Part shown: positions 2,019 to 24,872 of the stretch, one piece after another
Layout: each line of letters begins with the position of its first letter
How positions within the stretch are numbered: position 1 is the stretch's first letter
Virus record (IMG/VR): IMGVR_UViG_3300028394_000017
Coordinates: 1-34,134 of that record
Source of the DNA: a virus
DNA: 34,134 nt
Reading direction: 5' to 3' (one strand)
Position numbers and translations under genes: made by a program
Notes under the pieces: model-generated
Told to the model about the DNA's origin: nothing
The model's database searches: none
Seen by the model: the letters and a program-made list of their open reading frames with translations, nothing else

Positions 2019-3650
2019 ATGAGTTCTGTTCCCCTAAAAATAGTTGGTAAATGTGTCGCAGAAGACGAGACACTGTTTGCCCACATGGATGCAGCTATTG
2101 CCCGAGGTTATCCACAGGTCAAGCAAGCCGAGTTAGCACATACTGGGTCTGTCCTGTTAGTGGCAAGTGCGCCGAGCGTTAGGGGTCAATTAGAGGTCAT
2201 TAAAAAGTTAAAAGCAGCGGGGTCGCCCATTGTGGCGATCAAGGGCGCACACGATTGGCTTATTGCTCACGGCGTGATCCCAGACTATGCCCTAGCCATT
2301 GACCCACAAGAGCACAGAATTGCGTTTTACAAGCCGCATAAAGATGTGCATTACATGATTGCCAGCCAGTGCCATCCTGCAATGTTTGACAACCTCGCAG
2401 GGCATCAGGTCACGATATGGCATCCATACGTTAAAAAGGGGCAGAACCGGCCTCGAAACTGTATGCTGATAGGTGGCGGCACAACCTCTGGTTTGAGGGC
2501 TATATCGTTGTTTTACGTCCTTGGCTACCGTCAGTTTGAGCTGTTTGGCTTTGATTCTTGTAACACCGGCAATATGCTCAGGGTCAACGGCGAGGGTTTG
2601 AAAGACGGTGACGATTTGGTTGAGGTCAGGATTGATCCAGATGGCGAGACCTTTTACTGCAATACGGCAATGGCCTTGCAGTCTGAGCATTTTCAGACCT
2701 ATTACGACTATTTGCCAGATGCTACGTTTAACGGGCATGGGCATGGATTGATTCAAGCCATTATTAAAAAACGCCAGCAAAACATGATGGAGCTGGGCGG
2801 CATCATTGATGTTAAGGCAAACCTAAACGACCGCACTTCATTTATCCATTGGGGCAATAAAGATGCAGCAAGCTGGCGCTATCGAGCCAAGATACCGGCA
2901 GCAGATTGGGCAAGTCTGAACGACCTGACTGCTGACACGTTGGTGTTTTCCAAGCCTCAAGCGCCTGAATTGATGGACATGGCTCGGGCAAAGGCTCGGG
3001 GCGCATGGGTGGTGGTGGACTTTTGTGATGATCATTTCGACTGGATGCACTACCAAGAGGCGCTACGTCTGGCTGATGCGGTGACTTGTCCGACCACCGA
3101 AATGGCAAAAAGAATTAAAGAACTGGGCAAGGATGCTATTGTCATTCCTGACCCTTATGAGTACCCCGAGATGCCACCGCACTGTAATGGGGTCAATTTG
3201 CTATGGTATGGGCATCATGTCAACCGTGAAAGCCTAAAACGCATACTGCCTGAGATTGAGGGTTATCCCTTGCGGGTGGTGTCAAACTTTGATGGTGCAA
3301 TTCCTTGGTCACATGAGACCATGCTGAAAGAATTTGCCCAAGCCGATATTGTGGTGATCCCTGCCACAGCTCCTTACAAGAGCGCAAACAGGGCAATTGA
3401 GGCAATTCGCCAAGGGTGTTATGTGGTTGCAGAGCCGCATCCAGCTTTGGAAGATTTCCCCATTTACATCGGCAACATCAAAGAGGGCATCGAATGGACA
3501 ACACAGCAGAACATGAACGAACTCATTTCCAAGGCGCAGAGGTTCGTGAGGGAAGAATTCTCGCCAGCAACACTGATCAACAAGTGGAAGACAGCTACGA
3601 GACGGCCTACAACCTTGGATGCGGATCAAAGAAATGGGACGGTTGGATAA
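2019..3650 (+). CDS. DUF115 (Maf/MptE-like) domain fused to a GT-B glycosyltransferase-like domain
   Basis: A protein of 543 residues. Residues about 40-250 resemble DUF115: a nucleotide-site-like VASAPSVRG, GAHDWLIAHGVIPDYALAIDP at about 76-96 (DP motif), and IGGGTTSGLRAI near 151-162. DUF115 occurs in archaeal MptE and in bacterial Maf flagellin glycosylation factors. Residues about 270-525 look like a GT-B fold, with YGHHVNRE near 395 and EAIRQGCYVVAE near 462, which resembles the donor-site E...G motif of GT4 enzymes. ATG at 2019 is preferred over 1986 because GGAGG lies 10 bases upstream and the first 11 codons fall in the terminator stem. The C-terminal tail after about residue 525 overlaps the next gene. 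Likely a glycan-modifying protein; substrate unknown. Confidence 0.75.
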   Translation: MSSVPLKIVGKCVAEDETLFAHMDAAIARGYPQVKQAELAHTGSVLLVASAPSVRGQLEVIKKLKAAGSPIVAIKGAHDWLIAHGVIPDYALAIDPQEHRIAFYKPHKDVHYMIASQCHPAMFDNLAGHQVTIWHPYVKKGQNRPRNCMLIGGGTTSGLRAISLFYVLGYRQFELFGFDSCNTGNMLRVNGEGLKDGDDLVEVRIDPDGETFYCNTAMALQSEHFQTYYDYLPDATFNGHGHGLIQAIIKKRQQNMMELGGIIDVKANLNDRTSFIHWGNKDAASWRYRAKIPAADWASLNDLTADTLVFSKPQAPELMDMARAKARGAWVVVDFCDDHFDWMHYQEALRLADAVTCPTTEMAKRIKELGKDAIVIPDPYEYPEMPPHCNGVNLLWYGHHVNRESLKRILPEIEGYPLRVVSNFDGAIPWSHETMLKEFAQADIVVIPATAPYKSANRAIEAIRQGCYVVAEPHPALEDFPIYIGNIKEGIEWTTQQNMNELISKAQRFVREEFSPATLINKWKTATRRPTTLDADQRNGTVG

Positions 3651-4096
3651 ACGTTGACCTGCATTCAGACATTGCAGACATCCAGTGTGACCTTAGAAAA
3701 CTAGAACTGGCAACCGATTCAGCCGATGCGGTGGCTGCAATCCACGTTCTAGAACATTTCTACGAGTGGGAGGTTTACGACCTGCTGACCGAATGGAAGC
3801 GGGTTTTAAAGCCAGGCGGCAAGATGATCTTAGAGTTGCCCTGCATGGATAAGGTGTTTGCCTATGTCCACAATTGTGTGGTTAACAAAGAGCCATTACA
3901 GCCGTTTATGACCACCTTTGCCCTGTGGGGTGACCCTAAACACAAAGCCGAGGCAATGTGCCACCATTGGGGTTGGTTTCAGCGTCCTTTGAGGGATATG
4001 CTGGAGACCGTAGGAATGCAAGAAATCACATTCTGCGAACCTAAATACCATTTTCCATTTAGAGATATGAGGGTGGAATGCTTAAAGGGGTCTTGA
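3494..4096 (+). CDS. SAM-dependent class I methyltransferase
   Basis: A 200-residue protein with motif I as NLGCGSKKWDGWINVD (residues about 40-55, Gly-rich SAM loop and acidic D55), D66 in the following strand, HVLEH at 84-88 and RVLKPGGKMILELP near 103-116. This is the short Methyltransf_11-type family found beside glycosyltransferases. ATG 3494 has AGAGG 7 bases upstream but implies a 157-base overlap with the preceding gene. A GTG at 3584 would start just before motif I, as most relatives do, with no clear ribosome site. The target is unknown; a sugar or small-molecule acceptor is plausible from the neighbours. The frame is -1 relative to the upstream glycosyltransferase gene. Confidence 0.82.
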   Translation: MDNTAEHERTHFQGAEVREGRILASNTDQQVEDSYETAYNLGCGSKKWDGWINVDLHSDIADIQCDLRKLELATDSADAVAAIHVLEHFYEWEVYDLLTEWKRVLKPGGKMILELPCMDKVFAYVHNCVVNKEPLQPFMTTFALWGDPKHKAEAMCHHWGWFQRPLRDMLETVGMQEITFCEPKYHFPFRDMRVECLKGS

Positions 4097-4815
4097 CCAA
4101 CGACGAGCGCCATGAGCAGATGTCAAAAGCAATTCACTTGCCGCTGCTCAAGAAAAAAGGCAAATTCAACAACCGGCGCATGACCATTGCGTGTTACGGG
4201 CCAAGCCTTGCCGATACGTGGAAACAGCTCCAGCGCCCAATAATGACGGTCTCAGGGGCGCACGATTATCTAGTGGAAAGGGGCGTAATTCCTGATTTCC
4301 ATGTGGATTGTGACCCCAGACCGCACAAAGCTCAGATGCTGAAAAAGCCTCAGAAAGAAACAAAGTACCTGATGGCCTCAGTTTGTCATCCAGACTTTTG
4401 GGAAACCCTCAAAGGAAAAAATGTTAAGGTATGGCATCTGGTGAACGGGAACGATTTTGAAACGGTGGCATGGGTCGCCCAAAATCACCCGCAGGGAATG
4501 GAAAGCCTGATAGGTGGCGGTTCAAGCGTGGGAATGCGTGCAATGAATGTTTCGGCGGCTTTAGGGTTTCGCCGGTTTGACATCCACGGCATGGATTGCT
4601 CATTTGTAAATAACCGCCACGCAGGTGCTCATACTGGCAAAGATCAGACTAAAATCATGGTCAGAGTTGGTTTGAGAACTTTCCAAACGACACAGCAGAT
4701 GCTCCAAGCAGCGATTGAAATGGAAAATTTCATAGAGACGCAGGACGCTGAAGTGGTGTTTTATGGTGATGGTCTAATGCAGGAAACTGCTTTCAAACTC
4801 AGGGAATTAGCATGA
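4078..4815 (+). CDS. DUF115 (Maf/MptE-like) protein, stand-alone paralogue
   Basis: A 245-residue protein containing only the DUF115 part: IACYGPSLADTW at 37-48, SGAHDYLVERGVIPDFHVDCDP at 59-80, IGGGSSVGMRAMNVSAALGF at 145-164 and DIHGMDCSF at 168-176. It aligns by eye block for block with the N-terminal half of the gene at 2019, so the two are paralogues flanking the methyltransferase. The GPS and DP motifs are better conserved here than in the first copy. It overlaps the methyltransferase stop by 19 bases, with GAGGG before ATG 4078. Probably a nucleotide-sugar or pterin-type transferase fold. The exact reaction cannot be read from sequence. Confidence 0.72.
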   Translation: MLKGVLTNDERHEQMSKAIHLPLLKKKGKFNNRRMTIACYGPSLADTWKQLQRPIMTVSGAHDYLVERGVIPDFHVDCDPRPHKAQMLKKPQKETKYLMASVCHPDFWETLKGKNVKVWHLVNGNDFETVAWVAQNHPQGMESLIGGGSSVGMRAMNVSAALGFRRFDIHGMDCSFVNNRHAGAHTGKDQTKIMVRVGLRTFQTTQQMLQAAIEMENFIETQDAEVVFYGDGLMQETAFKLRELA

Positions 4816-5399
4816 AAAACGAAGTAGCAGGTTGGACAAACGAAAGCTGGATGGAAGACAACCGAGGCAAGATGGCGGTGTTTTTCTACACTAAACAGGT
4901 GCAAAACTCATTTAAGACGGCGCAGGAAAACCGCCCGATTTTTGATGAAAAGATTTTTTTAAAGAAACTTGTGCCTGGTGACTCTACATTGGTGGTCGAC
5001 CGTCCAATGCGTCCGACCGATGTTGAGGATTACCCAATTGAATGGGCGCGGTTTGAGCAAAAGAAAGAAAACCGTGTCTCTGGTACTCCGCTAGATGCTT
5101 GGTCTATTTTGAGCGACACCCAAAAAGCCGAATTTAATGCTTTGCACATTTTTACGATTGATCAGTTTGCACAGCTTCCTGACTCAGTTGGCAACAAGAT
5201 CATGGGTTTTAATGATTTGCGCGACAAGGCTCGCACGTTCATTTTGGCGGCAAAAGACTCTAAGTTGATGGACAACGTAAGGGCTGAGACTGAGAAAGTC
5301 ATGCAGACTCAGGCTGCTGAAATTGCTCAGTTGCGTGAAATGATTAACGATTTGACTGCCAAAAAAGGCAGACCACGAAAAGAAACCGTAGAGGAATGA
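4812..5399 (+). CDS. Hypothetical protein with helix-hairpin-helix-like segment and coiled coil
   Basis: A 195-residue protein that begins inside the stop of the preceding gene (ATGA overlap). Residues 108-144 (FNALHIFTIDQFAQLP...LRDKARTF) have the spacing of a helix-hairpin-helix fold, and residues 150-185 form a likely coiled coil, ending in a basic KKGRPRKE tail. The N-terminal 100 residues have no motif I recognise. Placement directly before the head-to-tail connector genes suggests a virion or assembly protein, perhaps one touching DNA. I cannot assign a function. Confidence 0.6.
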   Translation: MKNEVAGWTNESWMEDNRGKMAVFFYTKQVQNSFKTAQENRPIFDEKIFLKKLVPGDSTLVVDRPMRPTDVEDYPIEWARFEQKKENRVSGTPLDAWSILSDTQKAEFNALHIFTIDQFAQLPDSVGNKIMGFNDLRDKARTFILAAKDSKLMDNVRAETEKVMQTQAAEIAQLREMINDLTAKKGRPRKETVEE

Positions 5400-5400
5400 C

Positions 5401-6318
5401 ATGAGCTACACACTGTTGCAGTTGGTCGATCAGATGTCGGCAGAGCTGGGTCTAACCCAACCAGCGACAGTGATTGGCTCATCGAATAACCAGACCATCC
5501 AGATTCTTGCTTTGGCTAACCGGCTGGGCAAGGATTTGGTCAGAGACTTTGAGTGGCAACGTCTGGTTCAAGCATACATCTGGCAAACACAAGTTGCTGT
5601 GAGCACCACGGGAAATATTACGTCTGGATCAAGGGTCATCACAAATATCCCTACCACGGCAGCGTTGGCGGTTGGCAATGTGGTTACTGGCACTGGACAG
5701 ACACCTTATGCTGAGATTTTGACAATTGACAGTAGCACGCAGGTCACGCTGAATGCGCCAGTTGCTACGTCTACATCCTCGGTTTCTATGACATTTGCCA
5801 AGCAGGACTACGACCTGCCAGGCGGGTATGACCGCATGATCTCGGATACTAACTGGGACAGGACAGACCATTGGCGCAATCTTGGCACAAAGTCATCTCA
5901 GGATTGGCAGTTCTTGCAGGGTGGCATTATCTCCATTGGCCCACGTGAACGGTATCGGATTTACAACAACAAATTCCGCATTTTTCAAGCATTGACCACG
6001 GTTTATAACTTCTCTTTTGAGTATGTATCAAACTGGTGGGTATGTGCCACAGGATCAGATCAAGGCTCAAAAGCAGCGTTTACGGCAGACACAGACACCT
6101 GTGTATTTCCTGATGACCTGATGCTTGCCGGTTTAAAGTTTTATTTTTTGAAAGCCAAGAAACTGGACTATTCAATTGAGCTGGGTGAATTTATGCGGTC
6201 GCTTTCATACTGTAAGGCGCAAGATGTCCCAGTGTCTGCAATGTCTTTAGCGCCAGTGGGCATGAACCAACTGGTTGGGCCTTGGAGCGTACAGGACGGC
6301 AACTGGCCGAGCGTTTAA
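5401..6318 (+). CDS. Head-to-tail adaptor-like protein
   Basis: A 305-residue protein starting 2 bases after the previous stop. The N-terminus (LLQLVDQMSAELGL, then IQILALANRLGKDLVRDFEWQRLV at about 30-55) is an alpha-helical pattern seen in podoviral tail tubular or adaptor proteins, followed by a beta-rich insertion (residues about 65-130) and a Trp/Tyr-rich C-terminal half. It lies directly before the gp10-like tail gene, matching the adaptor then nozzle order in podoviruses. It probably forms the ring under the portal. The assignment rests on context and N-terminal pattern. Confidence 0.6.
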   Translation: MSYTLLQLVDQMSAELGLTQPATVIGSSNNQTIQILALANRLGKDLVRDFEWQRLVQAYIWQTQVAVSTTGNITSGSRVITNIPTTAALAVGNVVTGTGQTPYAEILTIDSSTQVTLNAPVATSTSSVSMTFAKQDYDLPGGYDRMISDTNWDRTDHWRNLGTKSSQDWQFLQGGIISIGPRERYRIYNNKFRIFQALTTVYNFSFEYVSNWWVCATGSDQGSKAAFTADTDTCVFPDDLMLAGLKFYFLKAKKLDYSIELGEFMRSLSYCKAQDVPVSAMSLAPVGMNQLVGPWSVQDGNWPSV

Positions 6319-7865
6319 TGTTAAGTTCATTTGCAAAAATACCCCGCCAGCAGTCTGCCCAGACGGTGACGGTTGCTGCGCCAATTGGTGGCTGGAATGC
6401 TCGGGATGCTTTGGGCGCTATGGATGCTTTAGATGCGGTGACTTTGCAAAACTTTTGGCCTGGCACAAATTCTGTACTTTTAAGGAACGGATACACCAAG
6501 CACGCAACTGGTTTGCCTGGCACAGTCCAGACATTGATGGCATACAGTTCAGGCACATCAAATAATTTATTTGCTGCGGCTAGTACAAGTATTTATGACG
6601 TTACCTCGCCTGGCGCTGTTGGAGCTGCGGTAGTTACTAGTTTGACAAATGCTAAGTTTCAATATATCAATATGACCACCACGGCGGGGTCTTATCTGAT
6701 GTGTGTAAATGGCGCAGATAAGCTCAGAATATATAACGGTACATCTTGGTTTAAAGATGGCGATGGCGTGCCTTACAACATTACTGGCGTAGATACGGCA
6801 ACTTGTTCAAACATCACTTTGTTTAAAAATCGGGTGTGGTTGATTGAAACAGGCACATTAAAAGCATGGTATTTACCAATCAATTCAATTGGTGGGGCGG
6901 CAACTAGTTTGGATATGTCAAGCCTTGTACAACAGGGCGGCTACATCATGGCGGGGATGACTTGGACGCTAGATGCTGGATACGGAATGGACGATTATTT
7001 GGCGTTCATTACCTCAACTGGTGAGTTGGTGGTCTGGCGCTTAACCGATCCAACGACCCCATCTGGCATTTCTATGATTGGTGTTTACTCTATTGGCGCA
7101 CCCATTGGGCGCAGATGTTGGACAAAATTCGGTGGAGACTTGCTGATCATTACACAAGATGGCGTAGTGCCTATGAGTGGTTCATTGCAGTCATCTAGGC
7201 TTGATCCAAGGGTTTCCATTACAAATAAGATTCAGTACGCCATGAGCGTGGCTATATCGACCTACGGGGCTAATTTTGGGTGGCAGTTGTTGTATTACCC
7301 TAAAGAAAATCAATTAATTTTAAATGTGCCAATTCAGACGGGACAAGAGCAGCAATATGTGATGAACAACATTACAAAAAGCTGGTGTAATTTTACCGGC
7401 TGGGCTACAACGTGCTGGGAATTGCACCTTGATGACCCCTATTTTGGGGGCGATGGGTTTGTGGCGCAGGCATGGGATGGCAACACAGATGACACATCTA
7501 ACATTAATGCGTTTGGTTTACAGAGCTTTCAAACGTATGGCACAGCCTTGCAAAAGCAATGCAAGATGATTCGTTACCACCTCCAAACAGATGGTTCGCC
7601 AGCAGTGTTTGGCAATGTTAATGTGGATTACAACTTAGCAGACGAATCAGCTCAGCTTAACTTTTCTACATCTCAATACGGGATATGGGATACAGGAACA
7701 TGGGATGCTTCAGTATGGGGCGCTGGACTTGTGCCAAGCGCAGATTGGCAAGGGGCTACAAGTATTGGATATTCGTTTGCTCCGCTGATCAAAACAGCCA
7801 CGCAGGGCATACAATTGCAGTGGGTCGCAACCGATCTGGTATTCGAGGGTGGCGGTGTCCTTTGA
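6318..7865 (+). CDS. P22 gp10-like tail hub / DNA stabilisation protein
   Basis: A 515-residue beta-rich protein. The opening VAAPIGGWNARDALGAMDALDAV..QNFWPGTNSVLLRNGY is typical of phage proteins related to the P22 gp10 stabilisation or nozzle family, where a short Asp/Ala segment precedes a beta-propeller-like body. It has repeated Trp and Gly-rich blades throughout. ATG 6318 is chosen because it overlaps the upstream stop as TAATG, implying translational coupling. An in-frame TTG at 6282 would lengthen it by 12 residues without homology-like content. It should close the tail channel and retain packaged DNA. Confidence 0.7.
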   Translation: MLSSFAKIPRQQSAQTVTVAAPIGGWNARDALGAMDALDAVTLQNFWPGTNSVLLRNGYTKHATGLPGTVQTLMAYSSGTSNNLFAAASTSIYDVTSPGAVGAAVVTSLTNAKFQYINMTTTAGSYLMCVNGADKLRIYNGTSWFKDGDGVPYNITGVDTATCSNITLFKNRVWLIETGTLKAWYLPINSIGGAATSLDMSSLVQQGGYIMAGMTWTLDAGYGMDDYLAFITSTGELVVWRLTDPTTPSGISMIGVYSIGAPIGRRCWTKFGGDLLIITQDGVVPMSGSLQSSRLDPRVSITNKIQYAMSVAISTYGANFGWQLLYYPKENQLILNVPIQTGQEQQYVMNNITKSWCNFTGWATTCWELHLDDPYFGGDGFVAQAWDGNTDDTSNINAFGLQSFQTYGTALQKQCKMIRYHLQTDGSPAVFGNVNVDYNLADESAQLNFSTSQYGIWDTGTWDASVWGAGLVPSADWQGATSIGYSFAPLIKTATQGIQLQWVATDLVFEGGGVL

Positions 7866-8295
7866 GTTAATTACCGATCATTCAGCAGGTCATTGGACGG
7901 CTGAACAGACAAAAGGTAAGTATTTTGAGGCAAACAGCCAATCAATCGGATTGAAACAAAACGGCGAGTTTGTTGCCGGTGTGATTTACGAGAATTGGAA
8001 TGGACGGTCAATCATTTGCCACATTGCCATTTCTGGTCGGTTGACACCGAGATACTTGGCGGTGATTTTTGACTATCCATTCAATGCTTGTGATGTCAAA
8101 AAAATTATTGTTCCAGTAGATGCAACAAACTTAAAAAGTGTCATCTTGGTTGAGAAAATGGGTTTTACAGAAGAAGCCCGAATCAAGGACGGCATGGCTG
8201 ATGGAGACATGATTTTGTACACATTGGCAAAAGAAAATTGCAAATATTTGGGGGAACGATATGGGAAAAACTGTAAGCCAACCAGCAGCACCTGA
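7855..8295 (+). CDS. GNAT-like acetyltransferase-fold protein
   Basis: A protein of about 146 residues with the strand-helix order of a GNAT fold: FELITDHSAG.., a central strand pair (FVAGVIYENWNGRSIICHIAIS), a helix (RYLAVIFDYPF) and the late motif NLKSVILVEKMGFTEEARIKDG, which is the classical GNAT motif B ending (..KMGF.EEA). Such genes often sit among structural genes of environmental podoviruses. The start is GTG 7855 (GAGGG 5 bases upstream) or GTG 7849. Acetyl acceptor unknown. It overlaps the tail gene before it by 11 bases and the next gene by 35 bases. Confidence 0.62.
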   Translation: MSFELITDHSAGHWTAEQTKGKYFEANSQSIGLKQNGEFVAGVIYENWNGRSIICHIAISGRLTPRYLAVIFDYPFNACDVKKIIVPVDATNLKSVILVEKMGFTEEARIKDGMADGDMILYTLAKENCKYLGERYGKNCKPTSST

Positions 8296-9340
8296 TTATG
8301 TAGGCGCAGCCAAAGAACAAGGTGTGGCAAACTTAGAATCTGCCAGAGCTACGGCAAAGCTATCCAATCCAAATACCTACACGCCATATGGTACTCAAAC
8401 AGTAACTTATGAGGGCGATATTCCTACAGTTACGCAAACGCTGACACCTACGGCACAAAAGACTTTAGAGGCGCAGCAAGGCGTTCAATACTCACTTGCC
8501 AACCTTGGACAACAAGGTGCAGACACTGCCAGCAATGTGCTAGATAAACCGTTTGACTTTGGTGGGCCTGCGGTACAGACCTCATTGGATACTAGCAATG
8601 TTGCCAAGATGCCGGTCAATGCAGGCATGACTGGGCAAGAAGCAATCATGCAGCGGCTTGAACCATCGTTGGCAAGACAGCGAGTAAGTACAGAAACTCA
8701 ATTGATTAACCAAGGGTTACGACCAGGCACTGAGGCTTACAACAACGCTATCCAGCTCCTTGGACAGCAAGAAAACGATGCAAGAACACAAGCGGTTACC
8801 CAAGGTCTTAACCTTGATATTGGCGCAAATGCTCAAGGCTTTAACCAAGCGGTTCAGCAAGGTCAGTTTGGCAACACTGCACAGCAGCAGGCTTTGGCTG
8901 AAGCGATCACACAACGTCAATTGCCGCTGAATGAGATCACGGCGCTAATGTCTGGCTCACAAATTCAAAATCCGCAATTTGGTGCTTACCAAGGCGCTAC
9001 GGTACAACCAGCGCCATTGTTTGAAGCAACCAAAGCTCAGGGTCTGTTTGACGCAAATACATATAACCAACAGGTTGCACAAGCTAATGCTGCTACAACA
9101 GGTATGTATTCATTGGGTGGTGCTGCATTGGGTGCGCCCAAAGGTACATTCTCTGACCGCAGATTGAAATCAAATATTGTCAGAATTGGCACTCACCCAA
9201 TAGGCGTGGGAATTTACGAATACGACATTTTTGGTGGTCGTCAGATTGGCGTAATGGCGCAAGAGCTGATGGAAGTAATGCCAGAGGCAGTACACCAGCA
9301 TTCAAGCGGTTACTTAATGGTTGATTACGGGAGACTTTGA
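8261..9340 (+). CDS. Virion protein with C-terminal S74 intramolecular chaperone domain
   Basis: A 359-residue protein. Residues 1-290 are Gln/Ala/Thr-rich, with a TPYGTQTVTYEGDIPTVTQTL segment near 40-60 split by a turn, and RVSTETQLINQGLRPGTEAYN near 140-160, a pattern typical of phage internal or tail proteins. Residues about 297-359 are a peptidase S74 domain: FSDRRLKSNI (Ser of the self-cleavage site, then R/K), a YEYD strand, GVMAQELMEVMPEAV and a final YLMVDYGRL. S74 domains help trimerise fibres and cleave themselves off. Here the domain is attached to an ejection-type body. GGGGAAC gives the ribosome site before ATG 8261. Confidence 0.75.
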   Translation: MGKTVSQPAAPDYVGAAKEQGVANLESARATAKLSNPNTYTPYGTQTVTYEGDIPTVTQTLTPTAQKTLEAQQGVQYSLANLGQQGADTASNVLDKPFDFGGPAVQTSLDTSNVAKMPVNAGMTGQEAIMQRLEPSLARQRVSTETQLINQGLRPGTEAYNNAIQLLGQQENDARTQAVTQGLNLDIGANAQGFNQAVQQGQFGNTAQQQALAEAITQRQLPLNEITALMSGSQIQNPQFGAYQGATVQPAPLFEATKAQGLFDANTYNQQVAQANAATTGMYSLGGAALGAPKGTFSDRRLKSNIVRIGTHPIGVGIYEYDIFGGRQIGVMAQELMEVMPEAVHQHSSGYLMVDYGRL

Positions 9341-10599
9341 TGGTTGATGTAAATTTATCCCCATACACCGCTGAACAGCAGGCAATGGATCGCCGCCGCA
9401 AAATGGCAGAAGCGATGCAACAACAAGCCGTTGCCCCAATTGAAATGCCGACTGTGCCAGGTGCAAAAGTTAGCCATTTACAAGGGTTGGCAAAGTTATT
9501 GCAAGGCTACATTGCTGGTAAAAATCTTGATAGAGCAGATCAAGAACAAAAAGATTATGAAAATCAAGTGTCAAGAGAGACGGCACACTTGTTGAGCAAT
9601 TTGGGTCAGTATGAGACTGTAAAAGGAGAGCAAACTTCTCCTGCTGTATCTGCTGAAATTATTCCTGCTGTAGAAAATCAAGAAAACCTTGATAGAAAAA
9701 ATCTTATTCTTTATAACGTTTCACATAGAACAAATCAAACTCCCAGTATAGGAATGGTAAACAATGGCACAAGATTAGACGAAAGCGGTGAAAATACATT
9801 TATGCCGTCTAGCGTTACTGGTCAACAAATAAGGGACGCAAATGATTTGCCTAGATATACATCCGAAGAACAAATTAAAACCCCAGCAAAACCAGCTACA
9901 TATGCTGCAGATCGCCAAGAACCTGTATTAAATGCAAGTTATTTAGACCCTACTAATCGTAATGCTTATAAAACTGGACAAGTCAAACAAATGCTAATGC
10001 AAGTTTTGATGCAGCAAGAAGCACAAAAGCAAGCTGCGGCATTAAGAAAGCAAGAAGCAGAGCAAGCAATTCATGCGTTTAATCCAGAGCAAAATGTTGG
10101 CACGATTGTTAATAGTAGATATGTGCCGCTTATTGAAGGCAAACCAAAAATAGAATATACGAAAGTCGAAACGCGTGATCCTGTAACAGGGCAACCAATT
10201 ATTAAATATGTTGATAAAACTCAATTAGGCGCATTAGGAAATATTTTAGCGCCGTACACTGGCATGATTGCTGATTTAATGCAGGCTCAAGATTTACCTG
10301 CCGCAATAAAAAATAACCCAGATGCATTGAGGTTAATTGGCGGTTTCTTAGGTAAACAAGGTGGGGATGTTACGGCTGCTGATTTTGCTAAAGTGATGAT
10401 TAGCTTAGACGAAACCAATGCTCGACTGAGATATGAAGGCATTTCTCCAGTATCAACTAATATTGTAAAAGGCAAAAATATCATGATCCCATCTGTGGAT
10501 TTACCACCTAAAGGAACTCCATTAGAAATTGGCAAGGTATACAACACTTCTAAAGGGCAAGCTCGCTGGAATGGGAATAAACTCGTTACCATAGATTAA
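9340..10599 (+). CDS. Putative virion-interior (ejection-type) protein
   Basis: A 419-residue, Gln/Ala/Asn-rich, mostly helical protein without Cys or clear motifs. The N-terminus contains AEQQAMDRRRKMAEAMQQQ, typical of phage internal proteins. A central coiled coil (KQMLMQVLMQQEAQKQAAALRK) precedes a C-terminal globular part ending in KGQARWNGNKLVTID. ATG 9340 overlaps the previous stop as TGATG, with GGGAG 6 bases before. Position in the row of genes between tail connector and fibre matches the ejection-protein block of P22-like phages. Function inferred from position. The gene is clearly more AT-rich than the packaging genes. Confidence 0.55.
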   Translation: MVDVNLSPYTAEQQAMDRRRKMAEAMQQQAVAPIEMPTVPGAKVSHLQGLAKLLQGYIAGKNLDRADQEQKDYENQVSRETAHLLSNLGQYETVKGEQTSPAVSAEIIPAVENQENLDRKNLILYNVSHRTNQTPSIGMVNNGTRLDESGENTFMPSSVTGQQIRDANDLPRYTSEEQIKTPAKPATYAADRQEPVLNASYLDPTNRNAYKTGQVKQMLMQVLMQQEAQKQAAALRKQEAEQAIHAFNPEQNVGTIVNSRYVPLIEGKPKIEYTKVETRDPVTGQPIIKYVDKTQLGALGNILAPYTGMIADLMQAQDLPAAIKNNPDALRLIGGFLGKQGGDVTAADFAKVMISLDETNARLRYEGISPVSTNIVKGKNIMIPSVDLPPKGTPLEIGKVYNTSKGQARWNGNKLVTID

Positions 10600-10608
10600 G
10601 GATTAAAC

Positions 10609-11346
10609 ATGGCTGAATTTACTTTAGAAGAAGCATATGGTATGCCAACGGAAAAACCAAAAACAAAGGTTAATCCTGCGTTGGTCAAAGCATTAATTCC
10701 CGCAAATCAACCTATTGTTGCAAATGATTTGCCTACCGCTGGAATGTCGCCCAAAGATCAAGCGGCATATCGTTTGAATGAAGCTAACAGAAAAGCAGCG
10801 GCTCAAAGCGAATCGGAAAAAATAAAACCTATTCCAGAAAAAATGAGTTCAGCAATTTTGCAGAATCATCAATCTATAAATAAGTTAGATGATGCACTTG
10901 ACCTATTGGAAGCAAACAAAAATGCTGTAGGGTTAAAAGGTAATTTAGGACAATTTTTATTAAATAATTTAGACCCTAAAGGAATTGACGCAAGAGCTGC
11001 TATTGCTGATATTGGATCAATTGTTTTGCATGATCGAAGTGGTGCGGCTGTATCAAATACGGAAGGTTCTCGACTTCTTCCATTTATACCCACGCCATCA
11101 GATACTTATGAAGCGGCAAAAAATAAATTAACAAGAATGCGTAAATATGCCGCTGAAGAACAGGATGCTTTAAAAACTACGTATAGCAAAGAACAAGGAT
11201 ATAAAGAACTTCCTAATTTACCGGCAAGAGTTGGAATAAATAAACCGCCAGTTGGTGCGCCACCTGAAGCCAAAAAAGCCCCAGATGGCAAATGGTATTC
11301 GCCTGATCCAAGCAGACCTGGCAAATATTTACAGTGGGGACAATGA
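10609..11346 (+). CDS. Putative virion-interior protein, 245 aa
   Basis: A helical protein with a disordered Pro/Lys-rich N-terminus and a short C-terminal KKAPDGKWYSPDPSRPG motif. The central block AAIADIGSIVLHDRSGAAVSN followed by RLLPFIPTPSD recurs in phage proteins I associate with ejection or virion-interior genes, so it is probably a real conserved family. AAGGATTAA precedes ATG 10609. It sits between two other ejection-type genes and shares their low GC. No enzymatic motif is seen. Confidence 0.55.
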   Translation: MAEFTLEEAYGMPTEKPKTKVNPALVKALIPANQPIVANDLPTAGMSPKDQAAYRLNEANRKAAAQSESEKIKPIPEKMSSAILQNHQSINKLDDALDLLEANKNAVGLKGNLGQFLLNNLDPKGIDARAAIADIGSIVLHDRSGAAVSNTEGSRLLPFIPTPSDTYEAAKNKLTRMRKYAAEEQDALKTTYSKEQGYKELPNLPARVGINKPPVGAPPEAKKAPDGKWYSPDPSRPGKYLQWGQ

Positions 11347-11347
11347 T

Positions 11348-12925
11348 ATGGCTGGCAAACCTGTCGAACATGACCCTTTTGTTACGCAATCAGGCGGCAT
11401 ACCTGTTGAGCATGATCCTTTTGCGCCTCAAAAACGATCATGGATGGATGTTGCTGGAGAATCGTTAACTAATATACCTACAAGTGCTGCGGCATTAGCT
11501 GGCAATCTTTATGACGTAGCAACAGACCCAATTCAAGCCGCAAGAGGCATGGGAAGAATGATTGTTGGCGGCACAGAAAAATTGATGGGTGAGCCTTATT
11601 TTGATACCTCAAGTGGTCGAGCAGTTCGTGAACAAGGTAAAGCGGCATTAAGCAACGCTGGAGAATATTTTAAAAACCGTGCTGGTAGTGAAGAAGCAAT
11701 TAAAAATACACTAGCTACCGACCCTGTGGGCGCTGCGGCTGATTTGTCTGCGTTATTAAGTGGCGGCAGTACGTTGGCGGCAAGAATGCCTATGTTGGCA
11801 AAAGCTGCGCCTGCATTAAGAACATGGGCAAGTGTGACTGATCCTTTGAATTTGGCGGCTAAAGCTGGCGGCAAAATGTATGACCTTGCTGGCGTATTGA
11901 CCAAACAAGGTTTGGGTCTAAAAACAGGCGTAGGAACAGAACCAATAACTCAAGCAGTGCAAGCTGGTCGAGAAAATAATCCTGCGTTTATTAAAAATTT
12001 GCGCGGTGATGTGCCTGCAATTAATGTTTTAGAAGATGCTAAAGCTAACCTTGCACAAATAAATGCTGACAAACAGCAAGCCTATCGGTCTGGCATGGTT
12101 AACATTAAAAATGATAAGTCTGTGCTTGATTTCATAGGAATTGACAAAGCATTAAAAGACGCTGAGGGTGCGGCTTACTTTAAAGGTAAAGTTATTGACG
12201 AAACTTCTGCATCTGTATTAGATAAGATGAAAGCCAAAGTAGCAAATTGGAAAAATTCAGACCCTGCTGAATACCACACTCCAGAAGCTATGGATAAATT
12301 AAAACAAAGCCTTTGGGAAGATTTTGGCAAATTAGGCCAAGAAGAAAAAGAAGCATATTCATTGGGTAAGCAAATTTATGATTCTGTTAAAACAGAAATT
12401 AGTAAACAAGCGCCTGAGTATGCAAAGGTAATGAAAGAATATACCGATGCAAGCGATTTAACTAAAGAAATTGAGCGTTCATTGTCTCTTGGCCATAAGG
12501 CATCTGCTGACACCGCAATGCGTAAACTTCAATCGTTAATGAGAAACAACGTAAACACAAACTACGGTCAACGACTCAATCTTGCCCAACAATTAGAAAG
12601 CGCCGGTGGCAGAGATTTAATGCCTGCTTTGGCTGGTCAGGCTATGGGTGATTGGACACCAAGGGGCATCCAAAGGGCTGCGGCAGGACTTGAGGGCATG
12701 GGTGCTTATGCAATTGGTGGCCCCGCATTGGCGGCTTTAGATGTAGCATCGTCATCACCAAGATTAATGGGTGAGGCATCATACAAATATGGTCAACTTG
12801 CAAATGCTTTAAATCAAGGCAAAAAAGCAGTTTCTAATGCAGTGCCAATGACGGCAAAACAAGCTAGATTAGCGGCTCTTTTAGGGTCACAATCTAATCC
12901 ATACGCAATTGGGGGACAGCAATGA
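11348..12925 (+). CDS. Putative DNA ejection protein, Ala/Gly-rich
   Basis: A 525-residue protein. A duplicated PVEHDPF motif lies at residues about 5-11 and 18-24. Long Ala/Gly-rich amphipathic stretches (about 45-90, 130-190 and near 450-475, GLEGMGAYAIGGPALAALDV) could insert into membranes. The middle is charged and helical (KDAEGAAYFKGKVIDETSASVLDKMKAKV split over residues 265-300). This is the profile of proteins ejected with phage DNA to form a trans-envelope channel. The ATG at 11348 lies 1 base after the previous stop. The stop TGA at 12923-12925 is also the left edge of the homing element, and probably once overlapped the ATG of the fibre gene. Confidence 0.6.
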   Translation: MAGKPVEHDPFVTQSGGIPVEHDPFAPQKRSWMDVAGESLTNIPTSAAALAGNLYDVATDPIQAARGMGRMIVGGTEKLMGEPYFDTSSGRAVREQGKAALSNAGEYFKNRAGSEEAIKNTLATDPVGAAADLSALLSGGSTLAARMPMLAKAAPALRTWASVTDPLNLAAKAGGKMYDLAGVLTKQGLGLKTGVGTEPITQAVQAGRENNPAFIKNLRGDVPAINVLEDAKANLAQINADKQQAYRSGMVNIKNDKSVLDFIGIDKALKDAEGAAYFKGKVIDETSASVLDKMKAKVANWKNSDPAEYHTPEAMDKLKQSLWEDFGKLGQEEKEAYSLGKQIYDSVKTEISKQAPEYAKVMKEYTDASDLTKEIERSLSLGHKASADTAMRKLQSLMRNNVNTNYGQRLNLAQQLESAGGRDLMPALAGQAMGDWTPRGIQRAAAGLEGMGAYAIGGPALAALDVASSSPRLMGEASYKYGQLANALNQGKKAVSNAVPMTAKQARLAALLGSQSNPYAIGGQQ

Positions 12926-12930: not shown

Positions 12931-13484
12931 GCCCTTGTTGCTTTGTTTTTAATCCTTGAAATATGAGATTGATTTACGCCATATTTAGCAGCAAGTACGG
13001 ATTGTATTTCCGTGCTGGCGCAAATCATGGCAATGTCGTCATCAGTCAATCTTCCATTCCAATGATTCAGTCCATAGTTATGACGGCGTTTTTTTGCGGT
13101 GTCTGCGTTGTTTTCGGCTTTTGTGCCTATTTGAAGATGGTCGGGGTTTACGCATGGCGCGTTATCGCATTTGTGCATAATTATTTTGCCATCAGGTATT
13201 TGACCTACATAAAGCTCATAAGAATAACGATGAGCTCTAACAGTTTTGCCGCCAGCAATCATAAAAATTCCATACCCATAACCATTTTTAGTCCCTTTCC
13301 AAACCCAGCATTTGTCGGTTTTTTGAATTTTTGCCTCAAAAGCATCTTTTTCAGATACCCCCAAATGATCGTGCAAAGTTTTAGAATGCCAGGCTTGTTT
13401 GTAATGTTTGCTACAAAGTTGGCGAGCCACAGATGGCAAGGCGCAAACAGAACACAAAATCACCGTTTTTACTTGATGGCCCAT
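12927..13484 (-). CDS. HNH homing endonuclease with zinc ribbon and C-terminal HTH
   Basis: A 185-residue protein on the strand opposite to all structural genes. Zinc-ribbon-like CSVC (11-14) and CSKHY (24-28) come first. The HNH core follows: [20 protein letters not shown] (H86), then [14 protein letters not shown] (H104, C106, C111, N113, H116). Residues 147-183 form a helix-turn-helix ([18 protein letters not shown]) typical of free-standing phage homing enzymes. Start ATG 13484 has AGAGG a few bases upstream and lies 22 bases after a TATAAT box; ATG 13523 would precede that promoter and is rejected. It cuts an intron-less target site to spread itself. Confidence 0.88.
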
Positions 13485-13506
13485 AAATCCTCTTGTAAAA
13501 ACATCA

Positions 13507-13535
13507 ATTATATGCCCTTTCAATGGAGGTGGCTA
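13507..13535 (-). promoter_or_regulatory. Promoter of the HNH gene
   Basis: Read on the minus strand: -35 TAGCCA (13535-13530), 17-base spacer, perfect -10 TATAAT (13512-13507). Transcription would start near 13500, about 16 bases before the HNH start codon. The promoter lies wholly inside the inserted element, so the element is self-sufficient. Confidence 0.6.
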
Positions 13536-13537
13536 CT

Positions 13538-14980
13538 GTGAGTTACAATGGTTCGGGAACATTCCAAATAAACACATCTGGTCAACCAGTAGTCACAGGC
13601 ACGGTCATATCCTCGACCGCTTTTAACGCCCTTACAGCAGACTTGGCAACAGGTCTGTCCACGGCTATCACAAAAGACGGTCAGACGGCTACAACGGCTC
13701 GCATACCGTTTGCTGCGGGTATCAGCTCTACACTGGTCACAGATTCATCTAGCACGGGTACAGGATCAATTATTACGGCTGGTGGGGTAGGTATAGCCAA
13801 GGCGCTGTATGTGGGTACTACGGCTAACGTGGCGGGTGCTGTGACCCTTGGCGGCGTGGCGACCTTTAGCGCACAACCGATATTTTCTAGTTTGACGGCA
13901 TCAACGGCAGTGGCAACAGATGCGTCCAAAGGTCTTGTTAGCGTCACCAATACAGGCACTGGCAATAACGTGCTGGGGACTGGGCCAACAATATCTTTGC
14001 CTGTCATTGACAACATTAAGATGGGTTACGCCACCACTGCTACGGCGGCGGGTACGACTACTTTGACCGTGGCAAGTAACTACCGTCAATTCTTTACAGG
14101 TTCTACTACGCAAACCGTTGTTTTGCCTGTAACTAGCACTTTGGTGACTGGCATTGCTTATGAAATTGAAAACAATTCGACTGGGTTGCTAACGGTTAAT
14201 TCGTCTGGTGGTAATTTGGTGGGAACAATACCCGCAGGCGTTTGTGCTCATGCGGTTTGTATTGGTACTACGTTAACCACTGCCGCCGATTGGGATTGGG
14301 ATTACATCTCAAACACATCAATCACTGGCACAGGCTCTGCTGTATTGGCTACTTCGCCAACAATCACAACGCCAACCATTGACACTATTACATCAGCCGC
14401 AGCAACTGCGCTGACATTAAAAAGTGCTGGTACAACAGCTCTCACAATAAGCACAAGTCAAGCGGCAACTTTTGCAAGTACGGTGGCTGATTCGGTGGCA
14501 ATTTTAAGGCCATTGGTTTCTGGCACTGCGGTTGCATCTACCAGTGGGACGAGTATTGACTTTACAAGCATCCCATCATGGGTGAAGCGTATCACTGTGA
14601 TGTTTAATGGTGTCAGTACAGGTAGCAATTCAAATTTTTTAATTCAAATAGGCTCTGGTTCAATTGTAACTACTGGTTATGTATCGGGGGCGGTCACAGT
14701 TCAATCAGCCGCAATTAGCTCTGCGGCAGTAACAAGCACTACTGCTTTTGTTGTTGCAACTGCTGGTAATGTGGCATATTTATGGACTGGAACAGTTCAG
14801 TTGGTCAATCTTACTAGTAATACTTGGGTTGAATGCGGTATGTTGGTTAATACAACTGGAGATCGAAGTACCAATAGTGGTGGAACACTTGCTCTTGGTG
14901 GTGCGCTTGATCGAGTTCGTATTACTTCTGTAACACCAGATACTTTTGATGCCGGAAGTGTAAATATCTTATATGAATAA
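13538..14980 (+). CDS. Tail fibre or tail tip protein
   Basis: A 480-residue, Thr/Ser/Gly/Ala-rich beta protein. The opening SYNGSGTFQINTSGQPVV..GTVI....FNALTADLATGLS..ITKDGQ is the standard N-terminus of many phage fibre proteins that attach to the tail. The body has repeated strand-turn units (TTATAAGTTTLTVASNYRQ, TATSPTITTPTIDT-like). The C-terminal 150 residues resemble a receptor-binding jelly roll (SWVKRITVMFNGVSTG...VRITSV). The start is GTG 13538 with GGAGG 8 bases upstream, supplied by the homing element; ATG 13523 would add five residues and overlap that ribosome site. Likely binds a host surface glycan. Confidence 0.7.
   Translation: MSYNGSGTFQINTSGQPVVTGTVISSTAFNALTADLATGLSTAITKDGQTATTARIPFAAGISSTLVTDSSSTGTGSIITAGGVGIAKALYVGTTANVAGAVTLGGVATFSAQPIFSSLTASTAVATDASKGLVSVTNTGTGNNVLGTGPTISLPVIDNIKMGYATTATAAGTTTLTVASNYRQFFTGSTTQTVVLPVTSTLVTGIAYEIENNSTGLLTVNSSGGNLVGTIPAGVCAHAVCIGTTLTTAADWDWDYISNTSITGTGSAVLATSPTITTPTIDTITSAAATALTLKSAGTTALTISTSQAATFASTVADSVAILRPLVSGTAVASTSGTSIDFTSIPSWVKRITVMFNGVSTGSNSNFLIQIGSGSIVTTGYVSGAVTVQSAAISSAAVTSTTAFVVATAGNVAYLWTGTVQLVNLTSNTWVECGMLVNTTGDRSTNSGGTLALGGALDRVRITSVTPDTFDAGSVNILYE
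13539..13546. repeat. Right copy of 8-bp direct repeat flanking the HNH element
   Basis: TGAGTTAC, identical to 12923-12930. Preceded by G it forms the present GTG start and the Ser-Tyr codons of the fibre gene. Confidence 0.8.
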
Positions 14981-21318: not shown

Positions 21319-21505
21319 TTTCACCCAGCAAAAAGATGATTCTTTTGATGAAATTCAGCGTTTAATGTGTTCAGTATACGGCTGCCCAAATCGCTGGTCA
21401 GTTCATTCTGACGGCGATAAACCGAAATGTTCAAAGCACCAATGGCAAAGAATTGAGAAAAAACCTGCTGTCCAAAGTTGGCATGAGGTTGGGGAGGAGT
21501 TTTGA
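21305..21505 (+). CDS. Small zinc-finger-like protein, 66 aa
   Basis: Begins at ATG 21305, overlapping the end of the replication gene by 14 bases, with GGAGGGAAA upstream. The product has a likely zinc site made of C22, C27, C42 and H45 (MCSVYGCPNRWSVHSDGDK followed by CSKHQW). Small proteins of this type are frequent next to phage replication genes. A nucleic-acid-binding role is plausible but not shown. Its TGA stop lies inside the overlapping starts of the methyltransferase locus. Confidence 0.6.
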   Translation: MAITNFTQQKDDSFDEIQRLMCSVYGCPNRWSVHSDGDKPKCSKHQWQRIEKKPAVQSWHEVGEEF

Positions 21506-22428
21506 ATGAGTTGGCTCTTTTCGCAGGCGCTGGTGGAGGAATACTTGGCGGCAAGCTCCTTGGATGGCGAACAGTCTGCGCCGTTGAGTGGGAAGCCTAC
21601 CCCGCAAGCGTACTGTGCGCCCGACAAAATGACGGTCTTCTCCCGACTTTCCCGATTTGGGATGACGTTTGCACCTTTGACGGACATCCTTGGCGAGGAA
21701 TTGTCGATGTTATCAGTGGTGGCTTTCCATGTCAGGACATTAGTGCCGCAGGAAAAGGCGCAGGAATTGATGGAGAACGATCAGGAATGTGGGGAGAAAT
21801 GGCAAGGATCATTTGTGAAGTACGACCCAGATACGTCTTTGTGGAAAACTCACCAATGCTTACTTCTAGGGGACTTGGAAGAGTTCTTGGAGACTTGGCC
21901 TCAATGGGGTTTGATGCGAAATGGGGAGTGCTGGGAGCAGCAGACGTTGGAGCGCCGCATCAGCGGGACAGAATCTGGATTGTCGCCAAATGGTGTAAAC
22001 AGCTTCCACACACCCAACACAACAGGATTAGACGGTGGGAGCAACAGCAGGAAAGCCCTAAAAAAGAAAATGGACTTGTGGCCAACCCCTGTGCATTCGG
22101 AAGCCAGACAGGGCTTGCAGATACGCAGAGAGGGCAAAAAAGGGACGCAGACAAGTCTCAGCACAGCAGTTCTGACCTGGCCAACCCCAAGAGCAGCGGA
22201 CTTCAAGGGAGCAACAAGTGCGGAAGCCATGAGCAAAGCAGCAGCAAGGGGATTCAGTCCGAATTTGCCAGAAGCTACGGCAGCGTCAGTAGGTGGTGGT
22301 CATCTGAACCCAACGTGGGTCGAGTGGCTGATGGGGTGGCCGCTAGGGTGGACAGACTTAAAGCCATTGGGAATGGACAAGTCCCTTTGTGTGCGGCAAC
22401 AGCATGGAGAATCCTAAGTGAATCATGA
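21502..22428 (+). CDS. C5-cytosine DNA methyltransferase
   Basis: A 308-residue frame with all key motifs: motif I LALFAGAGGGILGGKLLGW, motif IV GGFPCQDIS (catalytic C77), motif VI VENSP (114-118; ENS where many have ENV), motif VIII QRDRIW (154-159) and motif X AIGNGQVP (288-295). The region between, about 165-280, is a poor-complexity, short target-recognition part. It would methylate a cytosine in phage DNA against host restriction. The start is TTG 21502 (4 bases after GGAGG) or TTG 21511. Almost the entire gene is also open in the +1 frame as a 303-codon ORF. Confidence 0.85.
   Translation: MNELALFAGAGGGILGGKLLGWRTVCAVEWEAYPASVLCARQNDGLLPTFPIWDDVCTFDGHPWRGIVDVISGGFPCQDISAAGKGAGIDGERSGMWGEMARIICEVRPRYVFVENSPMLTSRGLGRVLGDLASMGFDAKWGVLGAADVGAPHQRDRIWIVAKWCKQLPHTQHNRIRRWEQQQESPKKENGLVANPCAFGSQTGLADTQRGQKRDADKSQHSSSDLANPKSSGLQGSNKCGSHEQSSSKGIQSEFARSYGSVSRWWSSEPNVGRVADGVAARVDRLKAIGNGQVPLCAATAWRILSES
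21506..22417 (+). CDS. Overprinted ORF inside the methyltransferase gene (SWLFS family)
   Basis: A 303-codon frame in +1 relative to the methyltransferase, with the better start of the two: ATG 21506 lies 8 bases after GGAGG. The product begins SWLFSQALVEEYLA and has FSRLSRFGMTFAPLT (45-59), KYDPDTSLWKTHQC (105-118), two WPTP motifs (192-195, 225-228) and a Trp-rich LNPTWVEWLMGWPLGW near 267-282. From memory, this set of motifs recurs in proteins annotated next to or over phage C5 methyltransferases, so the frame is probably expressed. I know no defined function. It may be a partner of, or modulator of, the methyltransferase. Confidence 0.6.
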   Translation: MSWLFSQALVEEYLAASSLDGEQSAPLSGKPTPQAYCAPDKMTVFSRLSRFGMTFAPLTDILGEELSMLSVVAFHVRTLVPQEKAQELMENDQECGEKWQGSFVKYDPDTSLWKTHQCLLLGDLEEFLETWPQWGLMRNGECWEQQTLERRISGTESGLSPNGVNSFHTPNTTGLDGGSNSRKALKKKMDLWPTPVHSEARQGLQIRREGKKGTQTSLSTAVLTWPTPRAADFKGATSAEAMSKAAARGFSPNLPEATAASVGGGHLNPTWVEWLMGWPLGWTDLKPLGMDKSLCVRQQHGES

Positions 22429-23838: not shown

Positions 23839-24195
23839 ATGAAAAAAGACGTTGCCGACTTTATTTCCACAATGTTTCACAGCTCTACCGTGACGCATTT
23901 CATGCACTTAGCCACTGACTCATTTTCAGTTCATATGGCGCTGGGGGCTTACTACGTTGAGATTGTTGACCTGGCTGACCAGTTCGCCGAGGCTTACGCA
24001 GGGTGCTACGAAAAAATCAAGGACTTTCCTGAAAACTTTCACAACGCCAAAGACCCTGTTAAGTACCTGACCAGTATCAAGGAATACGTTTACAAGAACC
24101 GAGAGGCATTGCCAGACGACACCCAGCTCCAGAACATTGTGGATGAGATAGCGGCGCTGATTGACACAACCCTGTACAAGTTGACCCTCAAATGA
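23839..24195 (+). CDS. Helical phage protein, DUF5856-like, 118 aa
   Basis: First gene after the early/late boundary, AAGGAA before ATG 23839. The protein is all helical: DVADFISTMFHSSTVTHFMH, HMALGAYYVEIVDLADQFAE, then FPENFHNAKDP and a final DEIAALIDTTLYKL. The HxxH...Y..I.DL.D.FAE pattern resembles a ferritin/Dps-like four-helix bundle, seen in small phage proteins classed as DUF5856. The function of that class is unknown. It overlaps the glycosyltransferase gene by 4 bases. Confidence 0.65.
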   Translation: MKKDVADFISTMFHSSTVTHFMHLATDSFSVHMALGAYYVEIVDLADQFAEAYAGCYEKIKDFPENFHNAKDPVKYLTSIKEYVYKNREALPDDTQLQNIVDEIAALIDTTLYKLTLK

Positions 24196-24872
24196 TCAGG
24201 ATATTTGCCGGTTACGACCCAAGAGAGGCTATTGGCTACCATGTGTTTTGCCAGAGCCTGATTGAGCGCAGCAGTGAGCCGGTCGCCATAACACCGTTGT
24301 ACGGTACACAGAGAGACGGCACAAACGCATTTACCTATCAGCGGTTTCTTGTACCCTACTTCACCAAGTTCAGCGGCAAGGCAATATTCCTTGACGCAAG
24401 CGATATGCTGATGCTGGCAAACATTGACGACCTAAGCAAACTATTTGATCCGACCAAGGCGGTGCAGGTGGTCAAGCACGAATATCAGACCAAGCACCCA
24501 AGGAAATATATCGGTACACCAATGGAAGCAGCGAATCGGGACTATCCCCGAAAGAACTGGTCAAGCTTAATACTTTGGAATTGCGAACACCCAAGAAATA
24601 AAGTGCTGACACCTGAATTTGTGGATGACCACAGCGGCTCAGACCTGCACCGATTCGGTTGGCTGCCAGATTCACTTATCGGTGAGCTACCGAAAGAATG
24701 GAACGTACTGGTGGGCGAGCAGGACAACAAGAATGCCAAGATAGCGCACTACACGCTGGGCATACCTGAGTTTGAGCACTATGAAGATTGCGACTTTAGC
24801 CAGCAATGGTTTAATACCAAGAGCAGGATGCTCAACGGCTTAATCAAGATGAGGGAGCTAGAACATGGATAA
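24192..24872 (+). CDS. Glycosyltransferase-like protein (GT-A type)
   Basis: A 226-residue protein. IRIFAGYDPREAIGYHVFC (2-20), then DGTNAFTYQRFLVPYF (42-57), then GKAIFLDASDMLML (62-75; D68-x-x-D71 at the usual DxD place), KHEYQTKHPRKYIG near 95-108, and KNWSSLILWNC. This is a family common in aquatic phages and related to GT8-type glycosyltransferases that use UDP-sugars. ATG 24192 overlaps the previous stop. It sits at the start of the late operon, far from the DUF115 cassette. Acceptor unknown; phage or host surface glycan is likely. Confidence 0.78.
   Translation: MIRIFAGYDPREAIGYHVFCQSLIERSSEPVAITPLYGTQRDGTNAFTYQRFLVPYFTKFSGKAIFLDASDMLMLANIDDLSKLFDPTKAVQVVKHEYQTKHPRKYIGTPMEAANRDYPRKNWSSLILWNCEHPRNKVLTPEFVDDHSGSDLHRFGWLPDSLIGELPKEWNVLVGEQDNKNAKIAHYTLGIPEFEHYEDCDFSQQWFNTKSRMLNGLIKMRELEHG

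Follow-up and report, generated by a model that had tools for sequence, protein, structure and literature searches.

We describe a wide and fixed association between a Maf-type transferase and phage capsid genes, centered on a three-gene cassette in a 34,134-base stretch of viral DNA (hereafter the window), which is the entire IMG/VR virus record IMGVR_UViG_3300028394_000017. The three genes fill the space between a decoration-like gene, which ends at 1980, and a homologue of p50 of Myxococcus phage Mx8, which starts at 4812, and they encode two Maf-type domains of the DUF115 family, a glycosyltransferase (GT) domain and a methyltransferase. A GT8-like gene farther along the window belongs with the set. 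That the cassette is a sugar-modification module we regard as very probable, and we favor the view that it builds and methylates a glycan on the particle during assembly. It is the association itself, recurring at a fixed place beside capsid genes, that is worth following. The genes of the set are as follows.

2019 to 3650, + strand: fused protein with a Maf-type (DUF115/PF01973) domain at about 2061-2771 and a GT4-like GT-B domain at about 2826-3614 (Pfam, predicted model with structure comparison, family alignment)
3494 to 4096, + strand: S-adenosylmethionine (SAM)-dependent methyltransferase of about 200 amino acids (PF08241, E 2.1e-10; conserved methionine at 3494 in the family alignment)
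4078 to 4815, + strand: stand-alone Maf-type (DUF115/PF01973) protein of 245 amino acids (PF01973, E 1.2e-17; predicted model; structure match; motif)
24192 to 24872, + strand: GT8-like transferase, GT-A type by homology (homology model from distant-phage neighbours, 289.7 bits)

An earlier note, made from the sequence alone, had described a cassette at 2019-4815 with two Maf/MptE-like domains, a GT-B domain fused to the first of them and a SAM methyltransferase in between, and both the coordinates and the domain calls were borne out by Pfam and the predicted models. The open reading frame (ORF) of the fused protein opens at 1986 and ends at 3650, with ATG 2019 as the probable start, and its product matches PF01973 at residues 55-194 (E 3.5e-16; 59.9 bits, cut-off 34.6). 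In its AlphaFold model (mean predicted local distance difference test score, pLDDT, 85.7), residues 26-262 match the Maf structure 5mu5 (Z 21.0, 219 residues), and residues 281-543 have a predicted GT-B fold that matches the GT4 enzymes BshA (Z 21.3) and PimA (Z 21.1). The methyltransferase ORF opens at 3416, and from its probable start at ATG 3494 it runs, in a different frame, across the 3' end of the fused gene. The model of the 245-residue protein (mean pLDDT 95.0, from a 55-sequence alignment) also matches 5mu5 (Z 20.9, 217 residues, 3.1 Å), with lesser matches to the MptE/HPPK structure 8sd5 (Z 14.6), to SteA (9.8) and to GT29/GT42 sialyltransferases (9.0-9.7 for the best ones). The two DUF115 copies share 31% identity over 192 residues, and both stay in DUF115 in profile searches.

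Maf flagellin glycosyltransferases transfer a nonulosonic acid to Ser/Thr residues of flagellin. PF01973 is common to Maf and MptE, and by both profile and structure the window proteins appear nearer to Maf: in a profile search of PDB sequences, the top match was Maf (E 3.7e-8), followed by MptE (E 7.5e-4), while searches of the PDB with single sequences gave no match, and the alignment profile was needed. The family corresponds to the central Maf_flag10 domain of Maf, which resembles Cst-II and is flanked in the cellular enzyme by an N-terminal Rossmann-like and a C-terminal helical-bundle domain (described in PMC11339370). The 245-residue protein consists of one domain, and neither flanking domain is present in either copy; we therefore call the phage proteins Maf-type rather than Maf. 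An AGxH motif near residues 182-185 is kept in the group of the 245-residue protein, in which D79, H120 and H185 are among the conserved positions. No long hydrophobic segment was found in the four window proteins, which makes cytoplasmic action plausible.

The virion module around the cassette is akin to that of Mx8, with terminase, portal, major capsid protein (MCP) and decoration-like genes followed by p50-, p51-, p52- and p53-like genes, and a tail protein downstream of the cassette is recognized by phrog_6013 (E 6.3e-43). The immediate surroundings of the cassette are as follows.

455 to 1435, + strand: major head protein, upstream flank (phrog_9953, E 9.1e-105; 51% identity to Mx8)
1447 to 1980, + strand: decoration-like head gene (phrog_29386, at only E 5.8e-5; position of Mx8 p49)
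1988 to 2012, + strand: terminator-like hairpin and T run between the decoration gene and the cassette, just before ATG 2019 (conservation)
4812 to 5399, + strand: Mx8 p50 homologue, downstream flank (phrog_20268, E 1.2e-11; order in named relatives)

The placement of the cassette among virion genes and after a decoration-like gene stands as first described; the downstream side, with its p50 homologue of phrog_20268, can be called the connector side by position only. In IMG/VR relatives, the decoration gene, fused transferase, methyltransferase, second DUF115 gene and p50 homologue occur in invariant order wherever the contig extends far enough. All three cassette genes are present in 63 of 67 distinct MCP-to-p50 stretches, the remaining four (L372, L376, L391 and L393) being distant relatives with a single DUF115 gene. 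Median pairwise ratios of nonsynonymous to synonymous substitution (dN/dS) relative to the window, each from 20-25 non-independent pairs (25 for each of the three cassette genes), were 0.112 for the fused gene, 0.056 for the methyltransferase, 0.060 for the second DUF115 gene and 0.057 for the GT8-like gene, compared to 0.042 for the MCP and 0.174 for the decoration gene. These low values indicate that the cassette genes are under purifying selection.

The same placement was found far beyond the close relatives. Scans of viral contigs seeded with alignments of the DUF115 domain, together with the earlier loci, gave at least 615 domain instances, many from overlapping loci that are cuts of one contig, which fell into at least 44 clusters at 65% identity. 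Among the matches listed, an Mx8-type MCP or p50 gene lies in the locus of 33 of the 44 clusters, and in all 27 clusters for which both flanks are present the DUF115 gene sits between the MCP/decoration gene and p50, the window's own clade contributing to both the 44 and the 27. This upholds the earlier note's expectation that relatives would keep the gene order and the association with virion genes. Because the scans were seeded with DUF115 in viral contigs, virion neighbours are to be expected, and the fixed position is the informative part. Six more of the clusters listed (L461, L365, L410, L319, L375 and L412) are found next to a portal gene of a different type; in L461, terminase and portal genes lie upstream and a phrog_334 major head protein gene lies downstream. 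The other five (L307, L457, L334, L328 and L458) are without firm virion context, although L458 has a tail-fibre-like neighbour. L458 also carries a tryptophan halogenase gene (6260-7879; phrog_2928, E 1.7e-151) immediately upstream of its DUF115-methyltransferase gene.

The partner genes recur with the DUF115 domain as well. Again among the matches listed, a methyltransferase recognized by either of two models occurs in the locus of 31 of the 44 clusters, often in the same polypeptide as DUF115, and Pfam places Methyltransf_24 in or beside the DUF115 gene of four further clusters (L361, L357, L321 and L359). A GT8-like gene is likewise found in 31 of 44, often directly adjoining DUF115, and two loci encode a GDP-mannose 4,6-dehydratase (L321, E 5e-117; L357, E 1e-118). 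The window's own GT8-like gene, which lies outside the region that the earlier note had covered, is present in at least 23 of 35 close relatives having at least 9.9 kb upstream of the MCP gene, a count that is a lower bound in that the gene falls at the edge of the available DNA. A genome collection yielded two metagenome-assembled contigs with DUF115. One (L306) contains portal and capsid genes and is therefore a phage contig; in the other (L307, assigned to Myxococcota), with helicase and primase neighbours, DUF115, a methyltransferase, a GT8-like gene and a GT-B homologue (which the window family model recognizes and Pfam does not) lie close together, which is the window's set.

It had been proposed that one of the two DUF115 copies arose by duplication within the cassette, and this was not sustained. 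In a tree of 51 DUF115 domains, the fused copy, its kin and L307 share one long branch (support 100/100), while the 245-residue copy groups with DUF115 genes of other phages (97/88). Forcing the two into a joint clade cost 53.9 log-likelihood units (p-AU 8e-5), with the groups named before the tree was seen and L307 excluded. The separate clades and the rejected joint tree imply that the cassette is a composite of two lineages rather than a fresh duplication; an older duplication, preceding the radiation of these phages, is possible. On a tree built from the capsid proteins of 55 loci, of which 30 are carriers and 25 non-carriers, the presence of DUF115 changes only twice, indicating a stable trait rather than a rapidly swapped insert.

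Phages related by MCP can also lack the cassette altogether. Eleven named records are relatives by this criterion, including BUCT555, ppBjS10J-1, Mx8, Mx9 and ctMlz233; by gene order and model scans, the cassette is absent from all six named records examined, Mx8 included, and in BUCT555 lysis-type genes occupy its place. Across 86 loci with the same virion module (the six named records plus 80 IMG/VR loci related through the Mx8 capsid protein), neither DUF115, the modelled methyltransferases nor a GT8-like gene was detected. Among the 75 DUF115-less loci listed, the gap between MCP and p50 is as short as 4 bases and as long as 6.4 kb. A Pfam search of 34 inserted ORFs at E 0.01 left most without any match; the few matches, some below curated cut-offs, were to Ig-like, laminin-G, arabinofuranosidase, pectate-lyase-like and GDSL lipase domains and to one methyltransferase of another type. 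Unrelated inserts occupy the same site in DUF115-less loci of the series L226-L305 (e.g., L300 11587-12942, L265 2588-3757, L280 7040-11320 and L287 8675-10558), and the MCP-to-p50 site seems to accept surface-related genes in general.

Among 50,697 phage records, neither the DUF115 proteins nor the window methyltransferase gave a tblastn match at 1e-5, nor was one found by DNA, with the caveat that records near the window may be left out of this set. Relatives of two GT8-like queries were found in 16 and 18 named-phage records, respectively, and a methyltransferase-DUF115 fusion query matched 21, in every case within its methyltransferase part. In ctDrO704, GT8-like and methyltransferase genes have the capsid gene on one side and the stabilization-protein gene on the other; adjoining them in the corresponding locus (L471, 11541-13118, - strand) is a gene for a 525-residue tetratricopeptide repeat (TPR) protein, in which only the TPR repeats were recognized. 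In CcrColossus (gp126-gp131), GT8-like and methyltransferase genes follow the tail genes together with a GT9 gene, and gp126, annotated as an alpha-2,3-sialyltransferase, scores 31.8 bits against PF01973, under the cut-off of 34.6. DLP_6 (AAY80_199-204) has a GT29-type gene instead, in a set flanked by a tRNA cluster and an endolysin gene, and in Mosig a GT8-like gene and annotated methyltransferases are grouped close to ribonucleotide reductase genes. Sialyltransferase-type, GT8-like and methyltransferase genes thus recur together in CcrColossus and DLP_6, accompanied in both by further GT genes; the two sets differ in that only that of CcrColossus follows virion genes. No sialyltransferase-type gene was identified in the ctDrO704 or Mosig loci.

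Given the capsid-side place of the cassette, its glycosyltransferase folds, its recurring partners and the presence of a sugar-nucleotide gene in two relatives, we consider the virion a likelier target than the host surface. In such a module, host-made nucleotide sugars would supply the sugars transferred by the Maf-type domain or domains, by the GT-B domain and by the separately encoded GT8-like enzyme, and the methyltransferase would add a methyl cap to a sugar or, with lower probability, to a side chain. Among possible acceptors, a surface-exposed head protein would be the most likely, with the decoration protein encoded just upstream (1447-1980) as first choice, a choice that we make tentatively, and the benefit might lie in masking of the particle or in changed adhesion. 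A broader proposition, to which we lend somewhat less than even credence, is that many uncultured phages carry a self-contained system of Maf-type (sialyltransferase-like), GT8-like and methyltransferase enzymes, long kept between capsid/decoration and connector-side genes, which gives the head a coat of methylated glycan, perhaps containing an ulosonic acid or a deoxysugar, and that in related phages the same site docks lectin-like, Ig-like or sugar-cleaving proteins as a general outer-surface slot.

Several observations weigh against this interpretation. The Pfam match of the fused protein to the glycosyltransferase family PF13524 (E 0.0034, 17.8 bits) is under the cut-off of 25, and its Maf-type domain is without the AGxH motif and may lack activity, serve a structural role or have another specificity. 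The GT8-like gene scores 16.2 bits against PF01501, under the cut-off of 24.3 (20 bits for its homologue in L391), and is therefore filed as GT8-like only. The 86 loci without DUF115 represent one part of the capsid tree, so the absence of the partner genes from them is no independent control, and some 10 kb separate the window's GT8-like gene from the capsid gene, which is the limit of the DNA available for these loci. The composition of the decoration protein might seem to point to it as an acceptor, its mean Ser+Thr fraction being 0.238 in carriers (n=70) and 0.169 in non-carriers (n=24), or 0.207 (n=20) and 0.167 (n=14) after thinning at 60% identity (p 0.003). The fraction is also higher in the p51 (p 0.006) and p54 (p 0.04) proteins of carriers; for MCP and p52 the difference is not clear, and p50 and portal show none. 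Since the cassette label changes only twice, giving two independent pairs, this excess is confounded by phylogeny and is not support. Lastly, the GT8-like and methyltransferase genes of DLP_6 and Mosig lie away from virion genes.

This last point makes it all the more possible that late in infection the enzymes alter lipopolysaccharide, capsule or flagella on the host surface, e.g., to keep progeny from re-adsorbing, with the genes merely residing in the late operon. Late expression does not prevent a gene product from acting on the host, and cellular Maf acts on flagellin (PMC11339370). We nonetheless judge modification of the host surface to be unlikely, given that the DUF115 gene directly follows the head genes in each of the 27 clusters with both flanks (among the matches listed), that it lies by portal genes in other module types, and that the four window proteins are without long hydrophobic segments.

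Two further explanations concern the individual domains. Glycosylation of modified bases in phage DNA by the GT-B domain and its partners is suggested by the appearance of T4 AGT (1xv5 and 1y8z, Z 18.7-18.9) among the structure matches and by a DNA methyltransferase gene in the window at 21502-22428. Many GT4 enzymes match the GT-B domain better, however, and no hydroxymethylase or other base-hypermodification gene was seen among 28 window ORFs, a subset of the total, scanned with PHROGs; the Maf-type domain is also not known to act on DNA, and we find this explanation highly improbable. That the DUF115 proteins are MptE-like pterin pyrophosphokinases, as the Pfam name of PF01973 and the shared family and fold of archaeal HPPK (8sd5) would have it, is scarcely credible. 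Maf is the better match by both profile and structure, the partners are glycosyltransferases, methyltransferases and a GDP-mannose dehydratase, and no pterin context was seen around the phage genes.

The hairpin preceding the cassette may keep enzyme levels below those of the capsid proteins. In 249 loci there are 44 distinct upstream stretches, and 37 of these combine a folding energy below -8 kcal/mol with at least 5 T in the 11 bases before the ATG, a count made with no shuffled control. RNAalifold, applied to 29 of 34 distinct stretches, found five consensus pairs, three of which show changes on both sides and one of which is broken or gapped in 8 of the 29. Terminator-like sites as such are not in excess in the region (9, compared to a shuffle mean of 9.5). 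The 3' arm of the window hairpin contains a Shine-Dalgarno-like AAGGAGG, and the hairpin could thus also act on translation.

Elsewhere in the virion region, the p52-like protein (6282-7865) is labelled an amidase by PHROGs (phrog_5107) versus head closure or phage stabilization protein in named relatives, and the amidase label is probably wrong. A GNAT-like acyltransferase gene (7849-8295; phrog_4470, E 1.9e-32) comes after the p52 homologue in the window, as it does in Mx8-type phages. Four large ORFs in an AT-richer stretch (9337-10599, 10609-11346, 11252-12925 and 12963-13541) had no PHROGs match at E 0.01 and no Pfam match at E 0.1; by position, they perhaps encode ejection or tail proteins.

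There are few systems in which phages have been proposed to decorate their own particles with sugars by means of enzymes that they encode. If the favored reading is correct, a Maf-type enzyme fixed beside the capsid genes of a large group of uncultured phages would constitute a new route to a sugar-coated virion and a source of compact protein glycosyltransferases, and a role would be found for a phage gene to which Pfam gives the label "pterin diphosphokinase MptE-like". It could also reveal a way in which phages mask or adjust the exterior of the particle. We found no report of DUF115 or Maf-type genes in phage virion operons in the open-access literature; a phage sialyltransferase gene has been described in another setting, in TayeBlu (PMC12772287), and methylation of flagellin in Aeromonas caviae is the subject of PMC9290775.

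Of the systems to which the cassette can be compared, the Mx8 virion module (p44-p54) has the same order of head and tail genes and an MCP 51% identical to that of the window, but there p50 directly follows p49, with no cassette. Maf of Magnetospirillum magneticum (5mu5) shares the PF01973 domain and its fold, whereas the phage proteins are without the other two Maf domains and have no flagellin context, and the fused copy has a GT-B domain instead. The nearest precedent is mycobacteriophage Corndog (cluster O), in which an O-methyltransferase and glycosyltransferases are encoded inside the structural operon (gp35-gp38) and have been proposed to modify the capsid (PMC4351075). As in the window, methyl- and glycosyltransferase genes lie within a virion operon; in Corndog, they are found between portal and protease genes, and no mention of a Maf-type enzyme was found in that description, the likeness being one of gene content. 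By this analogy, the cassette would be best explained as working like the capsid-modification genes of Corndog, but built on a Maf-type transferase.

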